From Cetobacterium sp. 8H (GTDB lineage: Bacteria > Fusobacteriota > Fusobacteriia > Fusobacteriales > Fusobacteriaceae), in contig NZ_JACHTG010000004.1 of NCBI RefSeq assembly GCF_014250675.1, positions 1,241,501 through 1,305,500 of the forward strand: 64,000 nucleotides of DNA. The letters are read 5' to 3'. The notes below the pieces were generated by a model, which did no database searches, was not told the origin of the DNA, and worked only from the letters and a program-made list of their open reading frames with translations. The position numbers and the translations under genes are program-made. This document shows positions 8,443 to 44,437 of this stretch, piece after piece. The stretch's first letter is position 1, and each line of letters starts with the position of its first letter.

Positions 8443-8459
8443 CCCTTAAGGAGGAAGAA

Positions 8460-8612: not shown

Positions 8613-8622
8613 CTAAAATAAA

Positions 8623-8661: not shown

Positions 8662-8671
8662 GATTTGTATA

Positions 8672-9064: not shown

Positions 9065-9220
9065 CCAGTCCCTCCTAAAAAATTATTGTTAACATGTTTA
9101 TTACTACATTTTTTTTAAAAAATCAATAGCTAATTGGGAGGTTATAGGTACTTAAGATTGCAGAATAAGAACATAAAAAAAATAATATTCAAGAATAGAA
9201 ATAAAAAATTTAAAAAAAGT

Positions 9221-9240
9221 ACACATTTTTATAAATGTGT
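9221..9240. promoter_or_regulatory. Perfect inverted repeat in the helicase promoter
   Basis: ACACATTT-TTAT-AAATGTGT is a 20-bp dyad with perfect 8-bp arms. It ends two bases before TATAAT (9243-9248) and covers the -35 position, so it can act as an operator for the DEAD-box helicase gene. Confidence 0.55.
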
Positions 9241-9284
9241 GGTATAATCTAATGAATGAATATAAATAGATTAAGGAAGTGAAT

Positions 9285-10871: not shown

Positions 10872-10890
10872 TTAAATAATGTTGATAGAG

Positions 10891-10926
10891 AGCTGTAACG
10901 AGGGAAACCGAAGTACAGCTTTTTTC
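10891..10926 (+). terminator. Terminator or attenuator between helicase and mltG
   Basis: A 7-bp stem (AGCTGTA with TACAGCT) around a 16-base loop containing GGGAAACC is followed by a T-run. mltG starts about 20 bases later, so readthrough could couple the two genes. Confidence 0.6.
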
Positions 10927-10947
10927 AGCATATTAAGGAGAGATAAG

Positions 10948-11901: not shown

Positions 11902-11915
11902 TTAGGAGTAAAAAA

Positions 11916-13595: not shown

Positions 13596-13609
13596 CAGGG
13601 AAAAAAAGT

Positions 13610-13637
13610 TTGAAAAAGGGTCTCTATATGGTATAAT
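13610..13637 (+). promoter_or_regulatory. Promoter of tilS-ftsH
   Basis: TTGAAA (13610-13615), a 16-bp spacer and TATAAT (13632-13637) lie 31 bases upstream of the tilS start. Confidence 0.7.
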
Positions 13638-13667
13638 TCTATAAAATACTGTTTGAAGGAAAAGTTT

Positions 13668-15020
13668 ATGCTAAATAAAATTTTAAAAAAGATAAAAAAA
13701 GAAAAATTAATAGAATCGGGAGATAAGATAGTAGTAGGATTTTCTGGTGGTCCAGATTCAGTTTTCTTGCTACAAGTTTTAATCTACGCTCAGAAAGAGA
13801 TGGATTTTGAGATACTACTGGTTCATATCAACCATCTTTTAAGAGATGAAAATTCAGAAAAAGATCAAGAGTTTGCAAGTGAAACAGCAAAGAGATTAAA
13901 TCTACCAATTTTTATTAAAAGAGCTAGCATAGAAAATATTTCAAAAGATATGGGTGTTGGCTTAGAAGAAGCTGGAAGAAAAATAAGGTATGATTTCTTC
14001 AATGAAATTTTAGAGAAAAATTCAGGAACGAAGATAGCAATCGCACACAATTTAGATGATCAAATCGAAACTTTTTTATTTAGAATGATAAGAGGATGTT
14101 CCCTTGAAGGTTTAGAAGGGATAAATCACAGAGATAATATCATAAGACCAATAAATGAAATCTATAAAAAAGAGATATTGAACTATTTGGATATGAATAA
14201 TATAGAGTATAGAATTGATGAAACTAATTTTGAGAATGAGTTTACTAGAAATAGTATCAGACTAGATTTGGTTCCATATATTGAGAAAAGATATAACGGT
14301 AGTTTTAAGGATAAAATACATAATTTAATAGATGAAATAAGGGAAGTAAATGAAGTTCTTAAGGTTAATCTAAAAGATTATAAAATTATCAGCCATAAAA
14401 AAGAGATGTTGAACTTAGAATTAATAAAAATTGAACCACCATATCTTCAAAGAAAGATAATAAATGAATATTTAAAAGAGTTTGATTTAGAAGCAACTAG
14501 AGAAAAAATATTGAATATAATTAAAATTATAAATTCAGGAGGAAGCAAAACTCTTGATTTAGAAGATAACCATCTTTTAAAAAAACAGTATAATAGTATC
14601 TGGATAGAAAAAAAAATACTAGATAAAAATATTCAAAAAAATGAAGAAGAAACTCAGATAGAAAAAATTAAAGTACCATTTAAACTAAAATTTAATGGAT
14701 ATCTTCTAGAGGCTGTAAAAGATAGCAAAAGCTCAGGTCAAAATGAGTTTTTAACTAATTTAAAGCCAGGGGATGAAGTGGAAGTTAGAGTTAGAAAAGA
14801 TGGGGATAAAATCCAACCTCTAGGAATGAGTAGTTATAAAAAATTAAAAGATATTTTTATAAATGAAAAAATTGTTAAAGAAGAGAGGGCAAACATTCCA
14901 TTGATTATAAAAGATAATGAGATTGTTTGGGTAGCTGGAATCAAAAAAAGTGAAGTATTTAAGGGTGAAAAAAATAAAGAAGGGATTAAGCTAATCATGA
15001 GGAGGCAGGATGAAAACTAG
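13668..15020 (+). CDS. tilS: TilS, tRNA(Ile)-lysidine synthetase
   Basis: A 450-residue TilS that converts C34 of tRNA-Ile(CAU) to lysidine so that it reads AUA. The PP-loop SGGPDS is at 26-31, the VHINHLLR motif at about 57-64 and the AHNLDDQIETFLFR motif at about 126-139. The C-terminal TilS domain starts near 370. This enzyme matters here because AUA codons are very frequent in the window. The start is ATG 13668 with GAAGGAAAAG in front; an upstream TTG at 13653 precedes that site. Its end overlaps the ftsH start by 11 bases, so the two are co-transcribed. Confidence 0.95.
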   Translation: MLNKILKKIKKEKLIESGDKIVVGFSGGPDSVFLLQVLIYAQKEMDFEILLVHINHLLRDENSEKDQEFASETAKRLNLPIFIKRASIENISKDMGVGLEEAGRKIRYDFFNEILEKNSGTKIAIAHNLDDQIETFLFRMIRGCSLEGLEGINHRDNIIRPINEIYKKEILNYLDMNNIEYRIDETNFENEFTRNSIRLDLVPYIEKRYNGSFKDKIHNLIDEIREVNEVLKVNLKDYKIISHKKEMLNLELIKIEPPYLQRKIINEYLKEFDLEATREKILNIIKIINSGGSKTLDLEDNHLLKKQYNSIWIEKKILDKNIQKNEEETQIEKIKVPFKLKFNGYLLEAVKDSKSSGQNEFLTNLKPGDEVEVRVRKDGDKIQPLGMSSYKKLKDIFINEKIVKEERANIPLIIKDNEIVWVAGIKKSEVFKGEKNKEGIKLIMRRQDEN

Positions 15021-17172
15021 AGATAATAATGAAAAAATGGCACTGTATAACTTTATTGAAGAAGAGCCAAAAAAAGATGATGAAAAAGATGATAAAGCTA
15101 GTGAAGATACTCAAGATAAGTCTAAAGCGGAACAGGAAAAAGAAGATTTAGAAGAAAGAAAAAGAAAGATCAAAGAGAAGCTAAAAGAGGGAATGGACAA
15201 CCCTAAAAACGACAAGGATGATAAAGATCCTCAAAGAGGTTTAGGTGGAAAGTTTAACCTAAAAGGATTCATAATGTTACTTTTTATAGTGACTATAATC
15301 TTATCATTACCTTCAATGTTCTCAAAATCGGAGTCTACAAATGTAAAAACTATCAGTTATACAGAGTTTTTAAATGATGTAAAAACTGATAAATTAGTAA
15401 GAGTCGATGAAAAAGAAGGATATATTTATGGATATACTTCAGATAAAGACGCAACTGCATTTAAAGCTAGAATGATTACTGACAGATTGGGTAGTGATCC
15501 ACAACTAGTAAACTTAATAGAGACAAAAAACATTCAAATAGAATCTTTACCACCACAGGAATTACCATTCTTATTAAATATGTTAGCATCTTGGTTCCCA
15601 ATGTTACTACTTATTGGAATCTGGATATTCATGCTTAATAAAATGAATAAGGGCGGAGGCGGAGGACCTCAAGTTTTCAATATGGGGAAATCTAAAGCTA
15701 AAGAGAATGGAGAGAATGTATCTCAGGTAACATTTGCCGATGTAGCTGGAATTGATGAGGCTAAGGTTGAGTTAGAAGAGGTAGTTCAATTCTTAAAAGA
15801 GCCAGATAAATTTAAAACTTTAGGGGCAAAAATACCTAAAGGGGTACTTCTTTTAGGAGCTCCTGGAACAGGTAAAACACTTCTTGCAAAAGCAGTAGCA
15901 GGAGAAGCTGGAGTACCATTCTTTAGTATGTCAGGATCAGAGTTCGTTGAGATGTTCGTAGGAGTTGGAGCATCTAGAGTGAGAGACCTGTTTACAAAAG
16001 CTAGAAAAAATGCACCTTGCATAATATTTATAGATGAGATTGACGCTGTTGGAAGAAAAAGAGGAAGCGGACAAGGCGGAGGAAACGACGAAAGAGAGCA
16101 AACTCTTAACCAACTACTAGTAGAGATGGATGGATTTGGAAGCGACGAGACTATCATAGTTTTAGCAGCGACAAATAGACCTGAAATACTTGATAAGGCT
16201 CTTATGAGACCAGGTAGATTTGATAGACAAGTTGTTGTAGATAGACCTGATATCAAAGGTAGAGAAGAGATATTAAAAGTTCATGCAAGAAATAAGAAAT
16301 TTGCAGCAGATGTAGATTTTGATGTTATTGCTAGAAAAACTCCAGGATTTGTTGGAGCGGACATTGCAAATATGTTAAACGAAGCAGCTATACTTGCAGC
16401 AAGAGCTGGAAGACAAGAGATAAAGATGGAAGACTTAGAAGAGGCATCTGAAAAGGTAACTATAGGTCCTGAAAGAAAATCGAGAATGGCTGTTCAAAAG
16501 GAAAGAATAATAGTTGCTTATCATGAGGTTGGACATGCTATGACTCAAAGAATGTCACCGCATACAGAGCCGGTTCACAAGGTTACAATCATTCCTAGAG
16601 GAATGGCAGCATTGGGATACACGATGACACTTCCTACAGAGGATAGATATTTAAAATCTAAAAATGAATTTTTATCAGAGTTAGTTACTTTATTAGGAGG
16701 AAGAGCTTCGGAAGAGGTTGTATTCGGAGATATCACAACAGGAGCAAGTAATGATATTGAAAGAGCAACAGCTATAGCCCATGCAATGGTAACAAAGTAT
16801 GGTATGAGTGAGAAATTTGGTCCAATAATGCTAGATAACACTCGTGAAGGAGATATGTTCCAACAAAAGCTTTACGGTGAAGTTACAGCTAAAGAGATTG
16901 ATGATGAGATAAGAGGGTTAGTATCAAATGCATACTTAAAAGCTAAAGAGATATTGACAGAGAATAGAGAGACACTAGAAACAATAACACAGGCTCTTTT
17001 AAGACTAGAAACTATAACAGGTGAAGAACTTGATGAGATGTTACAAGGAAAAACTGTTAAAAGAATAGAAGATGAGAACAGAATTAAAGAGAAATTAGCT
17101 GAGATAGAGCAAGAAGAGGAAAAGTTAAAAGAAGAGCTGAAAAATAAAGCTTCTCAATCGGTTATGGAATAA
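15010..17172 (+). CDS. ftsH: FtsH, membrane ATP-dependent zinc metalloprotease
   Basis: A 720-residue FtsH that degrades membrane and short-lived cytosolic proteins. Two membrane helices (about 86-103 and 193-209) flank the periplasmic domain. The AAA module has Walker A GAPGTGKT (283-290), IIFIDEIDAVG and the SRH near RPGRFDRQ. The zinc site HEVGH is at 505-509. About 80 highly charged, Lys/Glu/Asp-rich residues precede the first helix, longer than in well-studied FtsH proteins (about 640-650 residues). The C-terminal 40 residues look coiled-coil. The AGGAGG ribosome site lies inside tilS. The call is very secure. Confidence 0.97.
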   Translation: MKTRDNNEKMALYNFIEEEPKKDDEKDDKASEDTQDKSKAEQEKEDLEERKRKIKEKLKEGMDNPKNDKDDKDPQRGLGGKFNLKGFIMLLFIVTIILSLPSMFSKSESTNVKTISYTEFLNDVKTDKLVRVDEKEGYIYGYTSDKDATAFKARMITDRLGSDPQLVNLIETKNIQIESLPPQELPFLLNMLASWFPMLLLIGIWIFMLNKMNKGGGGGPQVFNMGKSKAKENGENVSQVTFADVAGIDEAKVELEEVVQFLKEPDKFKTLGAKIPKGVLLLGAPGTGKTLLAKAVAGEAGVPFFSMSGSEFVEMFVGVGASRVRDLFTKARKNAPCIIFIDEIDAVGRKRGSGQGGGNDEREQTLNQLLVEMDGFGSDETIIVLAATNRPEILDKALMRPGRFDRQVVVDRPDIKGREEILKVHARNKKFAADVDFDVIARKTPGFVGADIANMLNEAAILAARAGRQEIKMEDLEEASEKVTIGPERKSRMAVQKERIIVAYHEVGHAMTQRMSPHTEPVHKVTIIPRGMAALGYTMTLPTEDRYLKSKNEFLSELVTLLGGRASEEVVFGDITTGASNDIERATAIAHAMVTKYGMSEKFGPIMLDNTREGDMFQQKLYGEVTAKEIDDEIRGLVSNAYLKAKEILTENRETLETITQALLRLETITGEELDEMLQGKTVKRIEDENRIKEKLAEIEQEEEKLKEELKNKASQSVME

Positions 17173-17178
17173 AAAGAC

Positions 17179-17207
17179 TTTACCAATCTAATAAAATATG
17201 CTATAAT
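17179..17207 (+). promoter_or_regulatory. Promoter of rpsO
   Basis: TTTACC (17179-17184), a 17-bp spacer and TATAAT (17202-17207) start a leader of about 70 bases before rpsO. Confidence 0.75.
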
Positions 17208-17220
17208 AAGACTAATCTTT

Positions 17221-17260
17221 GCTAGGATTTACGAGTAAGCTACGTAAACCTTGGCCTAGA
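17221..17260 (+). ncRNA. Structured rpsO leader, candidate S15 autoregulatory RNA
   Basis: The leader can form a bulged hairpin (GGATTTACG at 17225-17233 with CGTAAACC at 17243-17250, 9-base loop) and an enclosing pair CTAGG (17222-17226) with CCTAG (17255-17259). The two share bases, so alternative folds or a pseudoknot are possible. Known rpsO leaders in several phyla bind S15 to block translation. This assignment rests on position and pairing only. Confidence 0.5.
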
Positions 17261-17284
17261 TATTAAATATTCAGGAGGAATACA

Positions 17285-17545
17285 ATGGCTATTAACAAAC
17301 CAGAAATAATATCTGCTTACGGAAAAGACGCAAAAGATACAGGATCTACAGAGGTTCAAATCGCGATCTTAACTGCACAAATCAACCACTTAACAAACCA
17401 CTTAAGAACTCACAAGAAGGATTTCCACTCTAGATTAGGATTACTTAAAATGGTTGGAAAAAGAAAGAGACTTTTAAGCTACTTAATGAGCAAAGATATC
17501 GAAGGATACAGAACTCTTATTGCTAAATTAGGAATCAGAAAGTAA
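17285..17545 (+). CDS. rpsO: Ribosomal protein S15
   Basis: An 86-residue S15, which binds the central domain of 16S rRNA early in small-subunit assembly. The sequence shows the expected TGSTEVQIA start of the fold, the conserved [15 protein letters not shown] block and the C-terminal [24 protein letters not shown]-type helix. Length is typical (88-89 in most bacteria). AGGAGG precedes the ATG. It is monocistronic, with its own promoter, structured leader and terminator. Confidence 0.98.
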
Positions 17546-24824: not shown

Positions 24825-25538
24825 ATGGGGCATAAGAAAACTAAACAAGATATAACTCAAAGTTTTAACGTAGCAATAGAAGGTATTATTGAAACTATAA
24901 GAACTGAAAGAAATATGAAATTCCATACATTTTCAACAGTTCTTGTTTTAATGCTTTCAGTCTTTATGGGAGTTAGTAGGATAGAGCTGATTGTACTTTC
25001 TCTAAGTATGTGTTTTGTGCTAGTCGCGGAACTATTAAATACTGCAATAGAAACATTTGTGGATATGGTTTCTCCAGAATATAATGTTTTGGCCAAAAGA
25101 GCAAAAGATATTGGAGCAGGAGCCGTTTTTATAGCAGCGACGAATGCCCTTGTTGTAGGTTATCTTGTTTTTCATAAAAGAGTGGCCGGAGAGTTTGATG
25201 AATTTTTCGAGTTGCTTAAAGGTTCTTATGCTAATGTCATAATTTTTATACTTATATTTTTAGTTGTTTTAGTTATAGCAATAAAAAGTTTTTTTAAAAA
25301 GGGAACTCCCTTGAGAGGCGGTATACCAAGTGGACATAGTGCTCTTGGAGGAGCTCTTTTTATAGGAATATTTTTCTTAACAAATGATGTGAGAGTTTTT
25401 TATCTTTCATTATTCTTACTAATTTTAGTTTTGCAGTCAAGAGTTGAGGGGAAAATACATACGGTTTTAGAAACAATAATAGGGGCAGTGTTGGGAATGG
25501 GAATAACTTATTTATTCCTATCTTTACTTAATATATAG
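24825..25538 (+). CDS. Diacylglycerol/undecaprenol kinase fused to PAP2 phosphatase
   Basis: A 237-residue membrane protein with two enzyme domains. Residues 1-122 are a DgkA-type lipid kinase with the conserved AELLNTAIETFVD and KRAKDIGAGAVF motifs. Residues 140-237 are a PAP2-type phosphatase: KKGTPLRGG, PSGH (168-171) and SRVEGKIH, with Glu in place of the usual Asp three residues after the His. Both domains act on polyprenyl or diglyceride lipids in the inner membrane and would catalyse opposite steps. The fusion is found in Clostridia and relatives. AAGGAGG precedes the ATG, nine bases after ybeY. Confidence 0.88.
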   Translation: MGHKKTKQDITQSFNVAIEGIIETIRTERNMKFHTFSTVLVLMLSVFMGVSRIELIVLSLSMCFVLVAELLNTAIETFVDMVSPEYNVLAKRAKDIGAGAVFIAATNALVVGYLVFHKRVAGEFDEFFELLKGSYANVIIFILIFLVVLVIAIKSFFKKGTPLRGGIPSGHSALGGALFIGIFFLTNDVRVFYLSLFLLILVLQSRVEGKIHTVLETIIGAVLGMGITYLFLSLLNI

Positions 25539-28493: not shown

Positions 28494-29321
28494 ATGGTAA
28501 AGAAGGTTTTAGTAGGAACATTAGCACTTAGTTCTTTAGGATTTGCAGCAGATTTATCAACAGTGAGTGGAGAGACAACAGCAGTTTTTGCTAAGCAAGA
28601 ATTGAGCAACGATAAACCGCTTATCTATTTAGCAGACAATTTCCATGAGATGGCAACTGTGCCAGGATTTTCTATGGGAGCACCATCAGGATTAGTTTCT
28701 TCATATGGAGTTGCATTTGCAGGTCTATCTGGAAAAACAAATAGTGATGATACAGATGGAGCACTAGCTTTAGGAATGGGATTTGGAGATGCTGAAACTA
28801 TAGGTGGAGCAATCTCTTTAGGAGTTGGAAGTATCGATCCAAGAGATGGAGGAGCTTTCAATAGAGGAAATTTAAATATGAGTTTAGGACATCATTTTAA
28901 AGATTATGGATTTGGATGGTCAGTAGGTATGAATGGAGTAAACCTATGGCATGACAATGGAAGTGATGGAGATAATGAAAACCCTAGCTTCTATACAGCA
29001 GTTACAAAGTTATGGCCAAATGATATTGCACCAATAGCAATAACAGCAGGACTTGGAAATAACTCTTTTGCAGATGTAAATATTGAAAATAGAGATAGAA
29101 AAGAAGAAGTAGGAGGATTTGGTTCAGTAGCAGTTTACCTATTCCCACAGATGAGTTTAATCCTTGATTATACATCAAATGTAGTGACAGTAGGAACAAG
29201 TATAGTTCCATTCCCACAATATCCAGTATCTATCAACTTAGGGGCAACTAACCTAACTGAGCAAGGACCAGAAGATAAGGTTTCTGCAATCGGATCAATA
29301 GCTGCAGCGTATGTATTTTAA
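28494..29321 (+). CDS. Exported, probably outer-membrane beta-barrel protein
   Basis: A 275-residue protein with a signal peptide (about 1-19, cleavage after GFAA or GFA). The mature part is Gly-rich with alternating hydrophobic strands (GALALGMGFGD, NLNMSLGHHFKDY, GFGSVAVYLFP, MSLILDYTS) and ends in an aromatic residue (AAAYVF), as outer-membrane barrels do. About ten strands could be drawn. I do not recognise a named family. It is the first gene of the locus with a small secreted protein, Wzz-like, BY-kinase and TolC genes, so an envelope or polysaccharide-export role is plausible but unproven. Confidence 0.6.
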   Translation: MVKKVLVGTLALSSLGFAADLSTVSGETTAVFAKQELSNDKPLIYLADNFHEMATVPGFSMGAPSGLVSSYGVAFAGLSGKTNSDDTDGALALGMGFGDAETIGGAISLGVGSIDPRDGGAFNRGNLNMSLGHHFKDYGFGWSVGMNGVNLWHDNGSDGDNENPSFYTAVTKLWPNDIAPIAITAGLGNNSFADVNIENRDRKEEVGGFGSVAVYLFPQMSLILDYTSNVVTVGTSIVPFPQYPVSINLGATNLTEQGPEDKVSAIGSIAAAYVF

Positions 29322-29336
29322 TAGGAGGTAGAAAAA

Positions 29337-29657
29337 ATGAAAAAGATTTTATTGGTGCTAGCATCATTATTGTTAATAAATACAGTGGTATTATGTGCAG
29401 AGGAAACAGCGGAATCAGCTGAGAACTCTACTCAAGCAACTCAGTCAGAAAATACAATTTCAGCAGCTCCAGCAGCTCTATCAAAAGGAGAGTCGTTTAT
29501 GGCAGCATTTGGAATGGGAGATTCAGGAGTTATAGGTGGAGGAGAATCCGGTGGAACATCAGGATCAGGAGCATCGGTTGCAGCAGCAATGTCAACAGCA
29601 CATGTGGGATCAACAGTTTTAACAAGCCCACAAAATACACCATACTCATACAAATAA
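29337..29657 (+). CDS. Small secreted Ala/Ser/Gly-rich protein
   Basis: A 106-residue protein with a signal peptide (about 1-20, VVLCA). VVLC is a poor lipobox because Leu is next to Cys, so simple secretion is more likely. The mature protein is low-complexity: Glu/Thr/Ser-rich to about residue 45, then AALSKGESFMAAFGMGDSG and a Gly/Ser tract at 64-80. No family is recognised. Small Thr/Ser-rich proteins such as GfcA start group 4 capsule loci in enterobacteria; the similarity is one of size and position only. RBS AGGAGG lies 15 bases after the barrel gene. Confidence 0.6.
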   Translation: MKKILLVLASLLLINTVVLCAEETAESAENSTQATQSENTISAAPAALSKGESFMAAFGMGDSGVIGGGESGGTSGSGASVAAAMSTAHVGSTVLTSPQNTPYSYK

Positions 29658-29699
29658 TACAGCAACTGAAAGCAACACATTAATTGATATAATAATGAG

Positions 29700-29726
29700 A
29701 GCGATCAGAAGTGGTCGCTTTTTTTA
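29700..29726 (+). terminator. Terminator before the Wzz-like gene
   Basis: A 7-bp stem AGCGATC with GGTCGCT (one G-T pair) and a 6-base loop is followed by seven T residues. It separates the barrel and small-protein genes from the signalling genes. Confidence 0.75.
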
Positions 29727-29775
29727 TGAAAAAATATAAAAAATAAATAAAAAGTATATTTTAATGGGGAGAATA

Positions 29776-30522
29776 ATGAGGAGAAGAGAGGAATTTTATG
29801 AGGATGACTTCTACGAAGATGAAGAGGAGTTAGACCTGATGGACCTAGTTTTCACACTTCTTAGAAGATGGAAACTAATAACACTTACAGCGATACCTAT
29901 ATTTGCATTAGGGGTATTTTTTGCAGCTACAAGACCAACGATATATAAGGGTGAGATGACACTTATGGTTTCAAGTGGAAGAAACTATGTGGCAAGCTCG
30001 CTTGAGAGTGGAGAACTATCGTTGAATCAGCAATTAACAACGACTTATACAGAGATAGCAAAAAGTAGAGTGATACTGAAAAATGTTATAAAAAAATATG
30101 ATCTTATAGAAAGTTTTGAGTCACTCCAAGGAAATTTAGCTATAAGTTCAGTTCAAGGAACAGAATTTATAAAACTAACATATAAAAATAGAGACCCAGT
30201 TATGGCAGCAGCTGTTGTAAATGAGATTGGAAATGAGTTTATGTTAAAAGTTCGTGAAGTTATGAATTTTCAAAATATAAAAGTTGTTGAGCCGGCAGAG
30301 ATTCCTAAAGAGGCACTGCCTAAAAAAAGAGCTCTTATTCTAGCTATTTCTTTAGTACTATCGGTTATGGTGGGATGTATGTCAGCTTTCGTAGTTGAGT
30401 TTTTCTTCTGTAAACTGAGAAAGCCTAAAGATATTGAAAAGATTTTAGGAACATCGATGTTAGGGATGGTACCAGACTTCAATCTATCTCTAGTTGAAGG
30501 AGGAACAAATGGAAAAGAGTAA
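29776..30522 (+). CDS. Wzz-type polysaccharide chain-length / co-polymerase protein
   Basis: A 248-residue Wzz-domain protein. An acidic N-terminus (EEFYEDDFYEDEEELD) precedes the first membrane helix (about 33-53); a periplasmic helical domain follows, and a second helix lies near 181-205 with the Pro-rich PAEIPKEALPKKR just before it, which is typical. It lacks a kinase domain, as in the CapA/CpsC proteins of Gram-positives, and the kinase is the next gene. The start is ATG 29776 because the ATG at 29764 precedes the GGGGAG site. It overlaps the kinase gene by 14 bases. Confidence 0.88.
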   Translation: MRRREEFYEDDFYEDEEELDLMDLVFTLLRRWKLITLTAIPIFALGVFFAATRPTIYKGEMTLMVSSGRNYVASSLESGELSLNQQLTTTYTEIAKSRVILKNVIKKYDLIESFESLQGNLAISSVQGTEFIKLTYKNRDPVMAAAVVNEIGNEFMLKVREVMNFQNIKVVEPAEIPKEALPKKRALILAISLVLSVMVGCMSAFVVEFFFCKLRKPKDIEKILGTSMLGMVPDFNLSLVEGGTNGKE

Positions 30523-31336
30523 AAGACAACTATTTTTTAAGGATTCAGAAAATCATGAGATGAATGAAGCTCTAAGAGTTATCAGAACAAACCTTCACTT
30601 TTTAAATGAGAAGGAGGAGGATAGAATAGTTTTAGTGACAAGTACAACTCCTAAAGAGGGGAAGAGTACAATAGCTTCTAACTATGCTATGAGTATTGCG
30701 ATAACAGGAAAAAAAGTTCTTCTTGTAGATTGCGATATAAGAAGACCAAGAGCTCATGAGAGTTTTGGAGTTAATTTCAAAATGGGATTAGAATCAGTTT
30801 TAACAGGTAAAACTGTTATAAATGATGTAATTTTAAAAGATGTAGAAAAAAATTTAGATATACTGCCAACAAGATATATGGCTCACAATGTGACAGAGCT
30901 TTTCTTAGGGGATAAGATGAAGACTCTTTTAGAAGGCTTAAAGGGTGAATACAATACGATAGTACTAGATACACCACCTCTTATTGTAGCAAGTGACGCT
31001 GCAATTTTATCCAAGCACTGTGATGGGGTTGTATATGTTGTAGCATATGACCAAGTTGCTAAAAGAGAACTAGAGTTTGGAAAGACAATGCTCGAGAATG
31101 CAAAAGCTAATCTGTATGGATTTGTTGTAAATAGAGTGGATAAAAATGGTCTTTCATATGGAAATTATGGATACTATAACAATAATTACTCATACTATAA
31201 AGACTACTATACAGAAGAAGGAGAAAATTTATCAAGAACATATGTGCCAAAAAAAGGGTTCAAAGGGTTCGTTGAAAAATTAAAAAGAGACTATAAGAGA
31301 CAGCTAAGTGGAGACCAGAAGGGGAAAAGATGGTAG
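30509..31336 (+). CDS. BY-kinase (CpsD/CapB-type tyrosine autokinase)
   Basis: A 275-residue bacterial tyrosine kinase. The Walker A motif TPKEGKST is at about 47-54, Walker A' VDCDIRRPR at about 73-81 and Walker B VLDTPP near 150-155. A C-terminal tyrosine cluster near 216-233 (YGNYGYYNNNYSYYKDYY, nine Tyr in 18 residues) is the autophosphorylation site type. The kinase is activated by the Wzz-like protein and reset by the phosphatase encoded next. The start is ATG 30509 with AAGGAGG upstream, inside the wzz-like gene. A Gram-positive split form in an outer-membrane bacterium is notable. Confidence 0.92.
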   Translation: MEKSKRQLFFKDSENHEMNEALRVIRTNLHFLNEKEEDRIVLVTSTTPKEGKSTIASNYAMSIAITGKKVLLVDCDIRRPRAHESFGVNFKMGLESVLTGKTVINDVILKDVEKNLDILPTRYMAHNVTELFLGDKMKTLLEGLKGEYNTIVLDTPPLIVASDAAILSKHCDGVVYVVAYDQVAKRELEFGKTMLENAKANLYGFVVNRVDKNGLSYGNYGYYNNNYSYYKDYYTEEGENLSRTYVPKKGFKGFVEKLKRDYKRQLSGDQKGKRW

Positions 31337-32121
31337 ATATCCACACTCATCTGTTATTTGGAGTGGATGATGGACCTGAAACACTAGAAGAGTCTATCAA
31401 ACTTATAGAGCTTGGTAAAAAACTTGGATATAGTGAGTTTATACTCACTTCTCACTTTGGAAAAGGAAGATTTCAAAATCAAAACTATGATAAAAACTTT
31501 GAGATATTAAAATCTGAGTGTGAAAAACTGAGTTTAGGTATTGTTTTACATAAAGGGAATGAGATATACCTAGATGAAAATATATCTGAGATATTAAAAG
31601 AAAAAAGATTTAATACTTTAGGAGAGAGATATCTTTTGGTGGAGTTTTCACCTCTTACGATTCCGGGGGTCGCAGAGGGGATGCTAAAAAGAGTTATAAG
31701 TGCAGGTTATATACCTATACTTGCTCATATAGAAAGATATAAGCACTTTAGAGGAAGTGATCTTGTTAGGTTAAAAAAGCTTGGAGTAAAACTTCAGGTA
31801 AACATTTCAGGAGCTTCTTATAACAAGAGTGTAGAAAGACTTTTAAAAGAGGGGTATATAGATTTTTTAGGAAGTGACACACATAGGTTAGGAAAAAGGG
31901 ACTATAACCTTGTGGATGAGCTTATAGATATAAAAAAGTTAGTGGGAGAAGATCTTTTAAGGAAAATGACACTGACTAACGGGAAAAAGATATTGAACAG
32001 TCAAGAGATTGAGGAGGATTTTGGGGATGAAGAAAAAGGTTCTAGTAGTAGCTTTTTTAGCACTTTCTTTGGTGGCATATTCAAAGGGGCTAGGGCTAGA
32101 AGAGATCTTAAACAGGGTTGA
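31330..32121 (+). CDS. PHP-type tyrosine phosphatase (CpsB/YwqE)
   Basis: A 263-residue PHP-domain protein-tyrosine phosphatase that dephosphorylates the BY-kinase. The metal-binding motif HTHLLFGVDDGP is at 4-15, with later ligands in LTSHFGKG, HKGNE, LAHIERY and LGSDTHR. It overlaps the kinase stop by 7 bases. The family usually ends near the NGKKIL helix (about residue 220-245); here about 31 extra residues (from 233 on) are read in a frame that overlaps the start of the TolC gene by 95 bases. The extension is low-complexity Ser/Phe/Gly and probably reflects a lost stop codon. Confidence 0.9.
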   Translation: MVDIHTHLLFGVDDGPETLEESIKLIELGKKLGYSEFILTSHFGKGRFQNQNYDKNFEILKSECEKLSLGIVLHKGNEIYLDENISEILKEKRFNTLGERYLLVEFSPLTIPGVAEGMLKRVISAGYIPILAHIERYKHFRGSDLVRLKKLGVKLQVNISGASYNKSVERLLKEGYIDFLGSDTHRLGKRDYNLVDELIDIKKLVGEDLLRKMTLTNGKKILNSQEIEEDFGDEEKGSSSSFFSTFFGGIFKGARARRDLKQG

Positions 32122-33265
32122 AGTTGGAAGCCCTGAGGTTAAGATTCAAGAGTTAGATATAAAAATTAAAGATAAAAATAAAAAAAAGGCACTTAGAAAT
32201 TTAATTTTGCCTCCTGTAACTATATCGAGTGAAAATGATTGGGAGATAGCGAAAAAAGAAGGTTTAGGTTTTGAAGAGATAGAAGCATATATTCCAATCT
32301 TTCAAGGTGGAAGAATGGTATATGGGTATAAAAAGACAGGAAAAGAGCTAGATTTAGCTAAAGAGAACCAGAAACTGTCTGTATATACGTGGCAAGAGCA
32401 GAGTGTGTCAGAATACTTTGATGCTCTTAACTACAGAAAGCAGCGTGAGATTACAGATAAAACAATAGAGGCACTACAAAAGCAAAGAGCAAGACTTGAT
32501 GGGCTGTATAAAGAAAACAAACTTATACCAAAGTCAGAGGTTTTAAAGGTTGAAGCGGATATTGAAAACAATAGAGCACAAAATCTTCAAAATATACAAA
32601 AAGAAAGAGCTGCAAAAGAGACACTTATGCAGTATCTAGGATATGATTTGGATAAAAAGATCGAGCTAGATGAGTTTGATGCCATGAGTCACCTTGAAAA
32701 TATAGGAGTGATAAAAAAAGTTGAGGCTCCTGAAGCTACAACACTAGGAAAGCGTGAGAGTTTGCTTGTAGATATAGCCGAGTATGATTTGAAGATAACA
32801 AAAGCTGATCTATATCCATCAATATATGTGAAACCCTCTCATAAGTTTAGAGAAGAAAACAAAACAACAAAAGAGTATGAAAATGTAAATGAGGGAATGG
32901 TTGAAGTAGGATTTAGATATACGTTTGCTTGGGGAGCAACTTTAGATAGTGTTGCTCAAAGTCAATACAGACTGGATCAAGCAAAATTGAAATATGAAAA
33001 TAATATCAGAGGTATAGACCTAGATATGAGAAATAAACTTGGAGAGATTGAATCTCTTGCAGGGCAGAGTGGAGCTCAGAAGAAAAGAGTGGAGCTGTTA
33101 CAAGAAAACTTAGGTATAGATAACTTGAGATATGATAACGAACTTGTAACAACTTTTGACTATCTAAACTCTGTAAATCAACTGAGAAAAGCTCAAGAGG
33201 ACTACTATAAACTTCAAAGAGAACTTGTACTAGCAGTTATAGAGTATGAGAATCTTTATAGATAG
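32027..33265 (+). CDS. TolC-family outer membrane channel
   Basis: A 412-residue outer membrane efflux protein. The signal peptide covers about 1-18 (MKKKVLVVAFLALSLVAYS). Long helical repeats follow, with the TolC-type ends YFDALNYRKQ...KQRARLDGLYKENKLIPKSEVLKVEADIE in the first half and the paired motif DNLRYDNELVTTFDYLNSVNQL in the second. The protein trimerises into an outer membrane and periplasmic duct. ATG 32027 is chosen because GGAGG lies nine bases upstream and the signal peptide begins there. It sits between the tyrosine phosphatase and a MacA-like adaptor. Confidence 0.88.
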   Translation: MKKKVLVVAFLALSLVAYSKGLGLEEILNRVEVGSPEVKIQELDIKIKDKNKKKALRNLILPPVTISSENDWEIAKKEGLGFEEIEAYIPIFQGGRMVYGYKKTGKELDLAKENQKLSVYTWQEQSVSEYFDALNYRKQREITDKTIEALQKQRARLDGLYKENKLIPKSEVLKVEADIENNRAQNLQNIQKERAAKETLMQYLGYDLDKKIELDEFDAMSHLENIGVIKKVEAPEATTLGKRESLLVDIAEYDLKITKADLYPSIYVKPSHKFREENKTTKEYENVNEGMVEVGFRYTFAWGATLDSVAQSQYRLDQAKLKYENNIRGIDLDMRNKLGEIESLAGQSGAQKKRVELLQENLGIDNLRYDNELVTTFDYLNSVNQLRKAQEDYYKLQRELVLAVIEYENLYR

Positions 33266-33274
33266 GGGAGAGGG

Positions 33275-34597
33275 ATGAATAAGAAAATAGCTATAGGGAT
33301 TTTAGCTCTTCTACTTGCTGGAGGAATAGGATACAAAGGGATGCAGATCGCTTCAGGAAAAGAGGTAAAAGTCTATAAAATAGAGATGGGAACACTTTCT
33401 AGTTCAATTTTATATGCAGGAGTTGTTGCACCAGGGGATGTTGTACCGGTTTATGTTGAAGCACCAGCACTTGTTGAAAGCATAGATGCTCGTGTGGGAC
33501 AAGAGGTTGAGCCAGGGGATAAACTTATGGTTTTCAGTTCTAAAAGTATAATTGAAAATGATAAGGAGCTGCGTATAAATGAGCTCGATATGAAAGATAT
33601 AAAGCTTAGAATTGCTGACCTTGAAGGCGGATCGCTAAAGCTTGAACTAGATAATAGAAAACTTGAGATGAGAAACCTTGAAGAAAAAGTTAATGGAGAT
33701 ATAAGAAGACTTCCAGTTGTTATGGCGGAAGCTAAAAGTTTAAAAGATAAGGCAGAAGCATATAAAAAACTGTTAGCTCAGGATGGAGTTTCAAGCACTG
33801 AAGCTAGTAGAGCTTCAACTGAAGCAGATAAAAAAGCTGTTGAGCTAGAGGACTTGAAGATGTCATTAGAACTTAATAGACAAAAGTTTGAACTTATGGC
33901 TGTAAGTTTTGAAAGTCTAACTAGAGAACTTCAAATAGAAGAAGCTAAATTAAAATCTCAACTAGAAAAGTTAGAGCTAAACAATGAGATTTTAGCAAGA
34001 CGTGCAGAGCAACTTAAAAAACCACTTGTGGCTCCAGTAGCTGGGGTTATAACAGCAATAGATGTACAAGAGGGAAGCAATGCTCACAGTGGTCAAAGAC
34101 TTCTTTCAATATCACCTAGAGGTGAGAGCACAATAAAAGTAGAGGTACCTATGTATCAAGCTACAAGTGTGACGCCAAATCAGAAGGCAACAATAAGAAC
34201 TAGCTCATCTGAAGGGGAGCTAACTTATACAGGTACTGTATCAAGAGTATCAAGTGTAGCTAGAGAGAGTCTTCTAGGAAACAAAAAAGAAAAGGTTATT
34301 GAAGTTGAAGTTAAAGTTTCAGAAAAAAATAATCTTAAACCGGGTTTTATAACAGATGTTGAGATAAGTAGTGAATCTTCAAGAAGTGTTGCAACTGTAA
34401 CCTCATTTTCTGTTTTAGAAGAGGGGGATAAGGCATATGTGTTTGTTGTTGAAGATGGGAAAGTAAGAAAAACTGAAATTAAGTTAGGTGCAAAGACAAA
34501 TACTGACTACGAAGTTTTAAATCTTTCTGTAGGAACAGAGGTTGTAATAAATCCATTTAAGGTTAGTAGCGGTGAAAGAGTAAAGGCTGTGATCTAA
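33275..34597 (+). CDS. MacA/HlyD-like periplasmic adaptor
   Basis: A 440-residue membrane fusion protein. One N-terminal helix (about 4-22) is followed by a beta-barrel/lipoyl half (VYVEAPALVESIDARVGQEVEPGD), a long alpha-helical hairpin (about 95-250) and the second lipoyl half (KPLVAPVAGVITAIDVQEGSNAHSG). The C-terminal beta domains reach residue 440. It would join the TolC channel to an inner membrane transporter. Its stop overlaps the start of the permease gene in TAATG, so these two are coupled. The substrate is not evident. Confidence 0.88.
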   Translation: MNKKIAIGILALLLAGGIGYKGMQIASGKEVKVYKIEMGTLSSSILYAGVVAPGDVVPVYVEAPALVESIDARVGQEVEPGDKLMVFSSKSIIENDKELRINELDMKDIKLRIADLEGGSLKLELDNRKLEMRNLEEKVNGDIRRLPVVMAEAKSLKDKAEAYKKLLAQDGVSSTEASRASTEADKKAVELEDLKMSLELNRQKFELMAVSFESLTRELQIEEAKLKSQLEKLELNNEILARRAEQLKKPLVAPVAGVITAIDVQEGSNAHSGQRLLSISPRGESTIKVEVPMYQATSVTPNQKATIRTSSSEGELTYTGTVSRVSSVARESLLGNKKEKVIEVEVKVSEKNNLKPGFITDVEISSESSRSVATVTSFSVLEEGDKAYVFVVEDGKVRKTEIKLGAKTNTDYEVLNLSVGTEVVINPFKVSSGERVKAVI

Positions 34598-35673
34598 TGA
34601 AATTTTGGATGGCATATAGACTTCTTTTAGGGAATAGAGGTAGAGCTCTATTCCCACTAGGAGGAGTTATCGTAGGAGCTATGGCTCTTATCATGACTCT
34701 ATCGTTAGGAGAGGGTGCAAAAAATATAATAGATAACGATCTTTCTGCAATAGGTAGCAATAGGATACTTGTTGGAGCAGAAAATCTAGGAAGTAGAGAT
34801 TTAGAGATTATTGAAAGGTTGCCTTTTGTGGAATATGGGGTTTTTCCAGAAAAAAGGGAGAGTGTAGATAATATAATCTTTAAAGGATATTCAAAAAAAG
34901 CTCTTCATGCGATGGGACTTCCAGATCTGCAGGAAAATGAGGTAGTACTGGATAAAAGTCAGTTTCATGAGAAGAAAGTGGGAGAGCTTATAGAGCTTGA
35001 AACGGGGAATGGGAAAAGAATATTTAGGATTAGGGATTTGTATCAAGAGTTGAGTCCATTTGAGACTATGAAACTAGGGGATAGGGTCATAGTTGGAGAC
35101 AAGACATTTGAAAAAATATTTGGAAGGAGAGACTACAAGAGTTTAGTCATATCCTTTCCACAAGATGAAGATGGGGTGGAATATATACCGGTAATATTGA
35201 GGGAGCTGAATAGGTCCCGGTTAAGTTACGGGCAAGTTCGGTTATTAGAAACACCTGATGTTTATAGAAAAGTGGAGAGGATAAAGACTTTTGTAAGCAA
35301 AATTTTGTTTAGTCTCTCTTTTATTTCTCTGATAGTTGGTGGGATAGGAGTACTGAACCTTATAGGGGCTTCGGTACGAGAGAGAGGCTCATATATTGGA
35401 ATAATGAGGACCATAGGAATGGGGAAAAGAGTTCTTATTGAGATATTTCTACTAGAAGGTATAATAATTGTAGGATTTGGTTCTGTTATAGGAATTATAT
35501 TAGGAGTAATGATGTCATATATGGTAGGATTAATTATAAACATACCACCATACTTTAGTTTGATAGAGATAGTTCTATCCATGATAGTCACAATGGGAAT
35601 CGGATTATTATTTGGTGTATTTCCAGCTAAAAAAGCTGGAAAAATCGAGATAGTCGATGCCTTAAAAGTTTAA
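34597..35673 (+). CDS. FtsX/MacB-like ABC transporter permease
   Basis: A 358-residue permease of the MacB/FtsX type: one N-terminal membrane helix (about 17-37), a periplasmic domain (about 45-225) and three C-terminal helices (about 232-255, 285-310, 322-345). The conserved SLIVGGIGVLNLIGASVRER stretch and the ending PAKKAGKIEIVDALKV are typical of the family. The ATPase, either fused or a LolD/MacB-like partner, is missing from this operon and from the window. With TolC and MacA-like partners it would form a tripartite mechanochemical export system if an ATPase is supplied in trans. Confidence 0.88.
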   Translation: MKFWMAYRLLLGNRGRALFPLGGVIVGAMALIMTLSLGEGAKNIIDNDLSAIGSNRILVGAENLGSRDLEIIERLPFVEYGVFPEKRESVDNIIFKGYSKKALHAMGLPDLQENEVVLDKSQFHEKKVGELIELETGNGKRIFRIRDLYQELSPFETMKLGDRVIVGDKTFEKIFGRRDYKSLVISFPQDEDGVEYIPVILRELNRSRLSYGQVRLLETPDVYRKVERIKTFVSKILFSLSFISLIVGGIGVLNLIGASVRERGSYIGIMRTIGMGKRVLIEIFLLEGIIIVGFGSVIGIILGVMMSYMVGLIINIPPYFSLIEIVLSMIVTMGIGLLFGVFPAKKAGKIEIVDALKV

Positions 35674-35684
35674 GCGGGGGATGT

Positions 35685-36689
35685 ATGGGAGATAGTATTA
35701 TATTAGCATTAATGATTATTATATTATTGATAAGTATTATTTTTATGAAAAAAATAGCTCATCCTATTATTTTAATTGAAATAATTTTTATCTTTTATGG
35801 ATATCTGTATAAAGAAATAAATATTAATATTTTTGACAAGTTTGAGTTAATTATTGCTACTATAATATGTTTTTTAATATCTATTATGTCTAAATTAATT
35901 TTTATTACCATAAAAAAGAAAAAAGAAAACAAAGTAAAAGATGAAAATAGAAAATGTGAATCAATAATTTTGTTTTTAAAAATAACTAATGGAATAATTT
36001 TTATTTTAAATATAGTGTTTATTATAATGGGTATATTTTTTAAAAATTTGGCTATAGATTTGAAAGACTCTTCATATTTGTTGTTAAATATAGGAATTTT
36101 TAATGAAATTATTATATTAATATTTCTTGATAGAGAGGAGATAATAGAAAAAAAAGTTTTTTTTAACCTATTATTTTATAACTTGTTTTTGGGGACATAT
36201 TTAAATATTTTAAATTTTATAATAGGAGTAATATACATAAAATTATTGAAAAAAGATATAATCAAAAAAATAGGATGGAAAATATTTGGCTTATTATTAA
36301 TAATTTTCATTATAATTAAAAAAATAGAATTAATAACCCCAAATAGTTTATATATACTTGAAGGTTACGGTATAATTCATAAATATTTTATATTTATAGC
36401 GATAAGTTTTATATATTCTTTAATCTTTGAGTTATCACAAATAAATTCAAGTTTGAGAGTTTTGCTAAGTAGAATAATACCTAGTTTAGGGATTTTGTTT
36501 TTTATAAAAATAGAACTAGAATTTTTTGATTTAATTATTAAACAAGTTATCATCTATTTTTTAGTAGTAGGAATGGTAGAATTTAGAATCTTTTTATATA
36601 AATACAAAGAGAAGAGATTGAAGGCAATTGTTTTAGAAAATTTTCATCAAATAAAAAATCACTCCAAATTAGAATTGTTAAAGATATAG
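35685..36689 (+). CDS. Ile-rich multipass membrane protein, unknown
   Basis: A 334-residue protein with about ten membrane helices and short basic loops (KLIFITIKKKKENKVK, KLLKKDIIKK). Isoleucine, lysine and phenylalanine dominate, and the DNA is much more A/T-rich than the upstream genes. It follows the permease by 11 bases with GGGGG before the ATG, so it belongs to the same transcript. I do not recognise the family. Size and helix number resemble fast-evolving polysaccharide polymerases (Wzy), but no motif supports that. It may be a late arrival in the locus. Confidence 0.55.
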   Translation: MGDSIILALMIIILLISIIFMKKIAHPIILIEIIFIFYGYLYKEININIFDKFELIIATIICFLISIMSKLIFITIKKKKENKVKDENRKCESIILFLKITNGIIFILNIVFIIMGIFFKNLAIDLKDSSYLLLNIGIFNEIIILIFLDREEIIEKKVFFNLLFYNLFLGTYLNILNFIIGVIYIKLLKKDIIKKIGWKIFGLLLIIFIIIKKIELITPNSLYILEGYGIIHKYFIFIAISFIYSLIFELSQINSSLRVLLSRIIPSLGILFFIKIELEFFDLIIKQVIIYFLVVGMVEFRIFLYKYKEKRLKAIVLENFHQIKNHSKLELLKI

Positions 36690-36964: not shown

Positions 36965-38374
36965 TTAAATTATTTTTTCAATAAAGGGCTTTAACTTCAG
37001 TTTGTCATATTTTGTGATAGGGAAATTGAACTCTACTAATCGATCGTTTATATGATATTTTGAAAAATCCAAATCCTCAAATGTTAAGATAACTTTAGGG
37101 TTATTTTCTTTTAAGAACGCCTCTAAATCAAAGGCAGATACCAGATGATAGCTGTTTACATCACTTTTAAGACCAACATCTTCACACAGGTCTATAATTA
37201 AATTTTTGTGTAAAAATTTATAGACTACAGCGATCTCTTTTAATTGATCAATCTCTTTTTTTATATCTAAATAAACAACATTCAAAAGAGTCATAGTTAA
37301 ATTAGCAAGATCAAAACTATCTAGTTGACCAAAATACTTTTTTAAAAGATCAGCTATTTTTTTATATGGAACTAAATAAGCTTCTCCAATAGAGTTATTA
37401 AAAATATAAAACTCATTGATATTGAAACTCTGTTTGTAATCCATAACAATAGTTATTAATAATATACGATTTAAAAGTTCTTTTGTAATTTTTATCTCTA
37501 CCCTTAACTTATCTTCAATATATTTAATAAGATTTATAGCTTCGATAGCTTTTTTAGGGTACATCTTCAAAAGGTTTGTTTTAAATTTTTTCATAGAAAA
37601 TTCTATCAATAGATATATATCAAAATCACTATATAGAGAGGTTTTCTTTAAAAAATCCACGAGCTCTATCCACTTATTTTCGGTATCTTCATCCAGTTTT
37701 TTATCTGTACTTGAATCTTGAAACTCTGTTCTCAATATAGAAATATATGTTATACTTTCTATATTTAAAGAAACAAAGGTATTGTTAGGAAGATTTGTCA
37801 GTTTAAAAATATTTTTAATTAGGCTATACACCTTATAAGTTTCTTTTAACTTATAAAACTCTATAAAAAATTCATCAAATATTTCAGGTAAATACTTTTG
37901 TTCTAAAAATATCTTTATTAAATAGAGCTTAAAAAAATCTCTTTTATCACTTTCTTTTCCCTCTAAAATAATACCATACCTAGTTAGATTCTTTATCTCT
38001 AAACTGAATTTTTCTAAAATTTCTTTTAGCTCATTTAAATCATTTGTTAAAGTTCGTCTAGTAACTCCTATTTTTTCACTAATTTGGCTTAGATTAATTA
38101 TATCCAATTTTAAAAGTTTTAAAATGATATACATTCGTCTTTCCTCAGGAGTAAAACTCTGTTTTTTTCTTAATTTATCTATAATTTTTGGTGTTTTACT
38201 AATTTTATTATGAATGTTCTCTATAGAGTCACCATCAAAAAGATATTCTAAATCCTTTAAATATCTTTTTGTTTTAAACTCAGATATATTTAATATATCT
38301 GCCAATTCACTTACAGAGTAGACATTTCTTTTCAAGCAGTACATAATTTTAAAGTGTATAGATGTAACGTTCAT
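36965..38374 (-). CDS. Mga/BglG-like transcriptional regulator with PRD-like domain
   Basis: A 469-residue regulator. Residues 1-50 hold a first HTH (SVSELADILNISEFKTKRYL) and about 65-130 a second winged HTH (NLSQISEKIGVTRRTLTNDL), as in BglG/Mga-type activators. A helical PRD-like region spans about 180-380. The C-terminus (about 385-469) resembles a degenerate EIIB fold without its catalytic Cys. No EIIA domain is present. The start is ATG 38374 after GAGGAAG; a GTG at 38380 lies in that site. A similar gene lies immediately upstream (31-base gap). Targets are probably local; the 39958 gene is the nearest divergent candidate. Confidence 0.75.
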   Translation of the reverse strand: MNVTSIHFKIMYCLKRNVYSVSELADILNISEFKTKRYLKDLEYLFDGDSIENIHNKISKTPKIIDKLRKKQSFTPEERRMYIILKLLKLDIINLSQISEKIGVTRRTLTNDLNELKEILEKFSLEIKNLTRYGIILEGKESDKRDFFKLYLIKIFLEQKYLPEIFDEFFIEFYKLKETYKVYSLIKNIFKLTNLPNNTFVSLNIESITYISILRTEFQDSSTDKKLDEDTENKWIELVDFLKKTSLYSDFDIYLLIEFSMKKFKTNLLKMYPKKAIEAINLIKYIEDKLRVEIKITKELLNRILLITIVMDYKQSFNINEFYIFNNSIGEAYLVPYKKIADLLKKYFGQLDSFDLANLTMTLLNVVYLDIKKEIDQLKEIAVVYKFLHKNLIIDLCEDVGLKSDVNSYHLVSAFDLEAFLKENNPKVILTFEDLDFSKYHINDRLVEFNFPITKYDKLKLKPFIEKII

Positions 38375-38404
38375 AATCACTTCCTCTTTTCTTAGACTTA
38401 GATA

Positions 38405-42781: not shown

Positions 42782-44437
42782 ATGATTAAAAAGAGATTGC
42801 CGATAGGGGTTAGTGACTTTAAAAAGATAATAGAAGAAAATTACTACTATGTAGATAAAACAAATTTTATCAAAGAGATACTCGAAAAAAAATCAGAAGT
42901 AACATTGTTAGCGAGACCTAGACGTTTTGGTAAGACTTTGAATATGACTACACTGAAATATTTTTTAGATATAAAAGAATCTCTTGAAAATAGAAAATTA
43001 TTTTCAGGATTAAATATAGAAAAGTCAGACTATATTGTTGAGCAGGGGAAGTATCCTGTAGTATATTTGACGATGAAGGATCTAGGCGGTAGAAATTTTA
43101 CAGAATTTTATGAAGAATTTAAAAGTAAAGTTAGTGGGATTTTTAATGAATATGAAAATATAAGAGAAAAACTAAATGCAAGAGATTTAAAAGAGTTTGA
43201 TAAAATTTGGTTTAAAGAAGAAAATGGGGACTATTCGAGAGCACTAAATTTTCTTTCAGAGTTAATTTTTAAGTGCTATAAAATTAAACCGGTTCTTCTA
43301 ATAGATGAGTATGATGCCCCTATGATAAAGGCCAATGAAATGGGTTATTATTATGATGTAAAAGAGTTGATAGGAACTTTTTATGGGAGTGCGTTAAAGG
43401 ATGGGGTTGCAGCTTTTTCAGTTATAACAGGGATATTACGTGTTGCAAAGGAATCTATATTTTCAACTTTGAACAATTTGAAAGTTAGTACAATATTAAG
43501 TGAAGATTATTCTCACTTCGGAATGTTAGAGTTAGAAGTAGAAGAAATACTGAAATATTACAATTTAGAAACAACTTTAAATGATACTAAGAAATGGTAT
43601 AATGGATATCTTTTTGGAAAAGAAAAAGTATATAATCCTTGGAGTATTTTAAATCATTGTGATACCGGAAAGTTAGAAGGGTATTGGGTAAATACAAGTG
43701 CTAATACATTGATAAAAATGATGTTAGAAAATGCTGATGAACAGATAACAGATATATTTTATGAGCTGTTAAGAGATGGAAAAGTAAAGACAATTTTAAA
43801 TGAAAATATGATATTTGGACAAAAATATAGTAATGATATCATACTTTATTTAATGTTTTCAGCAGGATATTTAACTATTGATAGTATTGGAAAAAAAGAT
43901 GATGAATATTATTTAAAAATACCTAACTATGAGGTAAAAAAATATTTTAAAAATACTTTTGTTGATATTGTAAAAGGAAATGGAATAAATAGTTTTTCAG
44001 AATTAGAAGATGCTCTTTTAGAAGGTAAAATAAGAGGGGTAAAATCTATAGATGAGTTAATAAATACTATGTTTTTATCGAGTATGAGCTATTTAGATAG
44101 TTCAAAAGAGGAGAAGTTCTATCATAATTTAGTTTTAGGAATGCTAATAGGGCTAGACAATCATTTTTATATCCATTCTAATCGAGAGGTTGGTATAGGA
44201 AGATACGATTTAGCATTAGAACCTAAGGATAAAAAAGGATATGGATATATATTTGAGTTTAAGGTAAGTAAAAAAAATGATGATATGGAAAAAATGGGAG
44301 CTCAGGCTCTGGATCAAATTGAAAGAAAAATATATGAGCATGAAATGAGAAGTCGAGGTATTTCTAAGATTATAAAGATAGGGATGGTATTCTGTGGCAA
44401 AACTTTAAAATTGTATGAAAGTCAATTTTCAACCTAG
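42782..44437 (+). CDS. AAA-ATPase-like protein with PD-(D/E)XK nuclease-type C-terminus
   Basis: A 551-residue protein of the AAA-ATPase-like/DUF1703 family. The N-terminal signature LPIGVSDFKKIIE...YYVDKT is followed by the modified Walker A RPRRFGKT (45-52) and Walker B VLLIDEYDAP near 173-182. The C-terminal part (about 460-550) has the PD-(D/E)XK-like pattern GRYDLALEP then YIFEFKVSK. Such proteins are often multicopy in Bacteroidetes, Fusobacteria and Clostridia. A mobile or defence function has been suggested for the family but is unproven. It has its own promoter and no obvious partner. Confidence 0.85.
   Translation: MIKKRLPIGVSDFKKIIEENYYYVDKTNFIKEILEKKSEVTLLARPRRFGKTLNMTTLKYFLDIKESLENRKLFSGLNIEKSDYIVEQGKYPVVYLTMKDLGGRNFTEFYEEFKSKVSGIFNEYENIREKLNARDLKEFDKIWFKEENGDYSRALNFLSELIFKCYKIKPVLLIDEYDAPMIKANEMGYYYDVKELIGTFYGSALKDGVAAFSVITGILRVAKESIFSTLNNLKVSTILSEDYSHFGMLELEVEEILKYYNLETTLNDTKKWYNGYLFGKEKVYNPWSILNHCDTGKLEGYWVNTSANTLIKMMLENADEQITDIFYELLRDGKVKTILNENMIFGQKYSNDIILYLMFSAGYLTIDSIGKKDDEYYLKIPNYEVKKYFKNTFVDIVKGNGINSFSELEDALLEGKIRGVKSIDELINTMFLSSMSYLDSSKEEKFYHNLVLGMLIGLDNHFYIHSNREVGIGRYDLALEPKDKKGYGYIFEFKVSKKNDDMEKMGAQALDQIERKIYEHEMRSRGISKIIKIGMVFCGKTLKLYESQFST

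Follow-up and report, generated by a model that had tools for sequence, protein, structure and literature searches.

A conserved Fusobacteriaceae gene block joining tyrosine-kinase capsule control to a TolC/MacA line, a probable envelope-export block for capsule or exopolysaccharide

The window analyzed here is a stretch of 64,000 nucleotides from Cetobacterium sp. 8H, in which nine open reading frames follow each other on the plus strand with small gaps or overlaps, all of them present where the initial annotation had placed them. Six of these genes (wzz, byk, php, tolC, macA and ftsX) are referred to below as the cassette. The features are as follows:

28494..29321, + strand: predicted outer-membrane barrel of ~12 strands (AlphaFold model; no family above cut-off)
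29337..29657, + strand: small secreted Ser/Ala/Gly-rich protein with a signal peptide, directly 3' of the barrel gene (alignment)
29764..30522, + strand: short Wzz/CpsC-like polysaccharide co-polymerase (PF02706, 1.3e-12; TIGR01006, 5e-28)
30509..31336, + strand: BY-kinase CpsD/CapB (TIGR01007, 154.6 bits against a cut-off of 108; motifs)
31330..32121, + strand: PHP-type tyrosine phosphatase CpsB/CapC (PF19567, 6e-48)
32027..33265, + strand: TolC-family outer-membrane channel of a BY-kinase-linked group (PF02321, OEP/TolC, 5e-31; tree)
33275..34597, + strand: MacA/HlyD-like periplasmic adaptor of a BY-kinase-linked clade (PF13437, HlyD_3, 2.8e-17; TIGR01730, RND_mfp, 4.6e-26; tree)
34597..35673, + strand: MacB-fold FtsX permease without a nucleotide-binding domain (PF02687, 7.6e-16; weak MacB_PCD; model)
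35685..36689, + strand: Ile-rich polytopic membrane protein, judged to lie outside the system (no family above cut-off)
36965..38380, - strand: Mga-like HTH regulator, a possible regulator of the system (PF05043, 1.1e-7)

Each of the pairs wzz/byk, byk/php, php/tolC and macA/ftsX has overlapping start and stop codons, which fits a single operon. The likely ATG of the kinase is at 30509 and that of TolC at 32027, 95 bases inside the PHP gene, and the gap between the small-protein gene and wzz is about 107 bases. A scan for promoters and terminators gave results at chance level and an Rfam search gave no match. The Mga-like protein is 26% identical over 488 columns to the regulator encoded divergently to the barrel gene in another Cetobacterium (L126:9699), of which it is a distant homologue, and it may possibly regulate the system. 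Elsewhere in the window a single protein (24825-25538) joins two domains, a diacylglycerol kinase and, after it, a PAP2 phosphatase. AAA-ATPase-like/PDDEXK_9 proteins are encoded near the cassette in the window (42782-44434) and at L059:10614-12290; in genome G009 one lies between ftsX and php.

The control genes have the features of the Gram-positive CpsBCD set: a separate short co-polymerase, a PHP phosphatase and a BY-kinase with Walker A (TPKEGKST), Walker A' (VLLVDCD) and Walker B (IVLDTPP) motifs and a Tyr-rich C-terminal tail. The co-polymerase has 252 residues, with ~130-140 residues between its two membrane helices (hydropathy peaks at 38-56 and 197-215), and judged by its sequence it has no room for the helical arm that is said to recruit Wza. 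In the Wza-Wzc structural work this arm of Wzc is described as the likely recruiter of Wza, and CpsC-CpsD pairs are described as having no translocon component (PMC12881504). Neither an OPX protein nor a Wzc with a long periplasmic helical arm was found in the system of the window.

Downstream, the cassette contains the set of parts of a MacAB-TolC pump, namely TolC, a MacA-type adaptor and a MacB-fold permease of 358 residues. The AlphaFold model of the permease shows a MacB-like fold (pLDDT 83, pTM 0.58), its best PDB matches are MacB structures, and it aligns to the MacAB-TolC pump 5NIK with a TM of 0.65. The permease has no nucleotide-binding domain, a feature that the initial annotation did not mention, and a search with a profile made from the MacB-type ATPase of the genome itself found no such domain inside the cassette at any fetched locus. 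The loop which we take to be the one that contacts the ATPase in relatives is the best conserved part of the permease (0.72 against 0.50-0.60 elsewhere) and, because of this, an ATPase may possibly be supplied in trans. A gene of 221 residues beside ftsX in G009 was considered as the missing ATPase and was ruled out, as it has no Pfam match and its neighbors are of AAA/nuclease type.

The Ile-rich protein was initially counted as a member of the system, which was not borne out: it matches nothing in the remaining 60 family genomes, and the GC content of its gene is 18%, against 34-41% for the cassette, barrel and small-protein genes. The same search gave no support for a role of this protein as a polymerase.

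The proposal of a system had been made dependent on the gene order being conserved in related genomes, and conserved it is: in the gene maps, wzz-byk-php-tolC-macA-ftsX appears in full at 22 loci, from 21 Fusobacteriaceae genomes and 7 genera, among them Cetobacterium, Propionigenium (P. maris) and Psychrilyobacter, with an in-frame stop in the permease of one of the 22 (G030). The permease was searched in 61 genomes of the family and then, by permease alignment, in 98 genomes of the phylum Fusobacteriota; 29 permeases without a nucleotide-binding domain were found in 28 genomes, and between the last of these and the first ordinary MacB-type permease the score drops from 374 to 192 bits. The PHP phosphatase and this permease are found together in 27 genomes; four genomes are discordant, three of which are explained by contig ends or incomplete assemblies, and within genera g1, g4 and g5 the two change between present and absent together. 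Fisher values for module co-occurrence are 1e-19 and 4e-19, calculated with shared descent ignored. A scan of named genomes with the permease alignment gave 7 loci only, and a tblastn search of plasmids with MacA gave C. somerae as the sole full-length match. A shorter version with neither php nor ftsX, wzz-byk-tolC-macA, is present at L085, L094, L095, L096 and at L103 in the window's own genome.

Several variations on the cassette were seen. In some genera a small PDDEXK_3-type frame lies between macA and ftsX (L062:6572-6973, PF13366; similar-looking ones at L054:8780 and L056:9138), cassettes of the Psychrilyobacter group have an additional BY-kinase 5' of wzz (L062:518, L063:2687, L064:15738 and L087:7), and in some Fusobacteriaceae lengths of 464-497 residues point to possible Wzz-kinase fusions (L092:7479 and 17033, L104:935, L106:3476).

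A further question is whether the TolC and MacA genes are tied to the kinase or only lie beside it. Forty BY-kinase genes score above the family cut-off and 35 of them share a gene run with TolC and/or MacA; the other five comprise two at contig ends (G048 and G097, the latter a short contig with wzz-byk-php and no TolC in sight) and three exceptions without TolC nearby (two in G042 and one at G054:C19). In trees, the TolC and MacA proteins linked to the kinase branch apart from their efflux paralogues, the MacA clade (n=32) with support of 100/94 and TolC with a weaker split; row L008_own_448 of the TolC tree is an adaptor and should be disregarded. Of the loci with no BY-kinase and a weak match to Wzz, seven were sampled; none (0/7) has the kinase-linked TolC/MacA pair, and one, L130, has an ordinary MacA-NBD-FtsX set. 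TolC and MacA track the kinase more than the permease does. One could still argue that these are ordinary multidrug or metabolite efflux genes, chance neighbors of the capsule control genes with no functional link to them, as Pfam and PGAP label the proteins generically as TolC, HlyD and FtsX and as a normal MacA-NBD-FtsX set lies nearby in the same genome (L067). We regard this as very improbable, since the fixed order in 7 genera, the dedicated clades, the kinase linkage, the loss of the ATPase domain and the gene overlaps all speak against it. The claim that tyrosine-kinase capsule control is coupled to a TolC line in a conserved unit is supported by the fixed order and the kinase linkage.

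It was described in a survey of capsule systems that Wzx/Wzy and ABC systems of double-membraned bacteria employ OPX-family proteins (PMC5542703), and PF02563 was used to detect such proteins (PMC9601211). With PF02563, 6 of the 98 Fusobacteriota genomes were positive, none of them beside a BY-kinase, while E. coli and three other controls were positive; the window's genome (G000) gave no match. Three of the positive genomes (G038, G039 and G087) have a Wzz-like gene beside the OPX gene and no cassette-type TolC/MacA in the fetched stretch, and in G053 and G058 the OPX gene lies in a locus separate from the cassette. Since surveys look for Wza-type proteins (PMC5542703, PMC9601211), the Fusobacteriota systems would escape them. 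In our own literature search, which covered mainly open-access published papers, no description of the cassette was found. The export block is real and conserved and, apparently, undescribed as a unit.

The barrel model has ~12 strands and is of low confidence (pLDDT 62.5, pTM 0.67), with weak PDB matches to FapF, OmpG and NanC. Barrel genes were found in 24 genomes, all 24 of which contain a BY-kinase, sometimes tens of kb away or on another contig, and at most barrel loci the small-protein gene lies directly 3' of the barrel gene. Members of the small-protein family have in common an SF-x-AFGM motif and a TPYSYK-like C-terminus, with a variable Ser/Gly middle. From this distribution both proteins probably belong to the system. 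At G033 and G030 (L050:11446, L052:7548) a different small secreted protein of ~105 residues, below the threshold of the small-protein profile, is encoded 3' of the barrel.

These two genes bear on another reading, in which TolC-MacA-FtsX exports a non-capsule cargo (a peptide, the small secreted protein or a lipid) and shares only its regulation with capsule synthesis, the polysaccharide leaving elsewhere, perhaps through the barrel. Export of substrates from the periplasm is known for MacAB-TolC; the barrel and the small protein are encoded as a pair, and the amyloid exporter FapF is among the barrel matches, at low TM. For the polysaccharide, a route through the barrel could be compared with the 12-strand NanC/KdgM family, which handles complex carbohydrates (PMC4827864). 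Against this reading stand the closer association of TolC and MacA than of the permease with the kinase, the loci that have neither permease nor barrel, the absence of an OPX protein as an alternative exit and the low confidence of the barrel model, so that we consider this reading unlikely.

What, then, is the substrate? The initial annotation left it as a glycan or other polymer and remarked on the absence of Wza, Wzx, Wzy and glycosyltransferases. The absence holds in the window, where OPX, PGT, GT1, GT2 and our other profiles found nothing and Pfam found none among nine flanking genes, but it is not a general trait. In most relatives with enough sequence the cassette adjoins, before or after, a Wzy-type capsule cluster with a sugar transferase, a glycosyltransferase and Wzy, and the substrate now leans clearly to a Wzy-type polysaccharide. 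In G005, for example, the genes after the permease encode an initiating sugar transferase, GT2, a nucleotidyl transferase, GDP-mannose dehydratase, an epimerase, GT1 and a Wzy-like protein, and further relatives repeat this layout with other enzymes. The C. somerae glycan genes encode a dehydratase, LegC, a sugar transferase, glycosyltransferases and an 'O-antigen polymerase'. Between two C. somerae strains, identity is 59-91% across the eight-gene stretch that begins with the barrel and ends with the permease, and 80-94% for the three glycan genes that come next; most glycan genes further out have no counterpart. This pattern is typical of capsule loci, in which the export block is constant and the serotype block varies. 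The C. somerae cassettes (L126, L127) lie on plasmids of 664-705 kb, and that of the window's genome on contig C4 (1.75 Mb).

The window shows the cassette in reduced form, with no adjacent glycan cluster. It may be that the cassette here is a remnant that lost its glycan cluster, an export block without a substrate, which would concern the window only and would be compatible with a capsule role of the cassette elsewhere. An orphan gene of 18% GC occupies the position of the glycan cluster of relatives, and the genome has a second full polysaccharide locus, L103 (G000:C4:462000-481900, genes 7237-17533; C4:469-480 kb), with its own wzz, kinase, TolC and MacA, with glycan genes between wzz and byk, and with neither PHP phosphatase nor FtsX permease. 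Yet all eight genes are intact, their identity to G012 is at least 79% where measured (ftsX 79, tolC 81, macA 87, barrel 92), and the genome has, at another place, a glycan cluster that lacks export genes, all of which makes a remnant somewhat doubtful. Glycosyltransferases beyond the window, which the initial annotation had proposed to look for, are indeed present. The 2.57 Mb genome has three initiating transferases: one in L103, one in L124 near a Wzz-like gene that has no BY-kinase with it, and one at C4:714,481. The last belongs to a cluster (L122/L123, G000:C4 ~707,000-717,300) with glycosyltransferases, an EpsG-type polymerase and no export genes, in which six consecutive genes follow the order of the genes beside php-ftsX in G002 at 40-65% identity. 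This cluster can be tentatively suggested as the in-trans partner of the window's cassette.

From gene content, order, co-occurrence and predicted folds, a complex, a substrate and an energy source can be proposed. On this genomic basis the six genes probably serve envelope export in a capsule or exopolysaccharide system of the Wzx/Wzy type, where TolC and the MacA-like adaptor take the place of the OPX protein Wza, and the cassette most likely works as a kinase-controlled capsule exporter with a TolC exit. Wzx would flip and Wzy would polymerize the repeat units at the inner membrane, and the short Wzz and the BY-kinase would control chain length as the kinase autophosphorylates and is dephosphorylated again, in cycles, by the PHP phosphatase. 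The chain would then cross the periplasm and the outer membrane inside a MacA-TolC tube, its adaptor ring held at the inner membrane by the permease, which would borrow an ATPase from elsewhere or work undriven, and a helper role at the surface may fall to the barrel and the small secreted protein. For the window's cassette, the glycan cluster on C4 would be a plausible partner in trans. Of the tripartite export system under tyrosine-phosphorylation control that was originally proposed, the coupling of kinase control to the TolC line stands by its conserved order, and the ATPase of the pump is missing; active pumping without it is not explained by our model and counts against it. The variant that has neither permease nor PHP phosphatase, the kinase sites with no TolC close by and the lack of glycan genes next to the window's cassette also weigh against the model. 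TolC pores are narrow in known structures, and gene order alone does not tell export from regulation. TolC export of a long capsule polymer was not found in our search of mainly open-access papers, but sugars through TolC are not a wholly new idea, since a 1997 listing, as quoted in PMC4827864, has TolC-family proteins among exporters of complex carbohydrates. If the model is correct, long sugar polymers have another way across the outer membrane besides the Wza channel that is thought necessary in double-membraned bacteria, and a MacB relative without an ATPase has a new job; the model predicts capsule loss in mutants of the kinase-linked tolC copy.

Each known system resembles the cassette in part. 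With the Group 1 capsule export of E. coli K30 (Wza-Wzb-Wzc) it shares a Wzz-type co-polymerase, a Tyr-tailed BY-kinase, a cognate phosphatase and, in relatives, Wzx/Wzy-type clusters. It differs in having no OPX/Wza, in separating a short Wzz from the kinase where K30 has one Wzc with a helical arm, in having a PHP phosphatase in place of the low-molecular-weight Wzb, and in its TolC and MacA. The Streptococcus CpsB-CpsC-CpsD set has the same separate short co-polymerase, separate kinase, PHP phosphatase and, as in relatives of the window, adjacent capsule genes, but the cassette belongs to an outer-membrane bacterium and continues in one gene run into an outer-membrane export line. This line resembles the tripartite ABC pump MacAB-TolC, and DevBCA-HgdD of cyanobacteria, in its channel, adaptor and permease fold, and differs in having no nucleotide-binding domain in the permease or elsewhere in the cassette and in the tie to polysaccharide genes and a tyrosine kinase. 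The composite OPX/beta-barrel translocon (PMC9601211) likewise has an outer-membrane barrel gene beside polysaccharide export genes, but the short OPX beside the barrel that characterizes it was not found at the locus, where the barrel is predicted with ~12 strands and TolC is present. The cassette does not qualify as a Wza system by the search for OPX, nor as a MacAB-TolC pump by the search for an ATPase domain in the cassette, both of which were negative.
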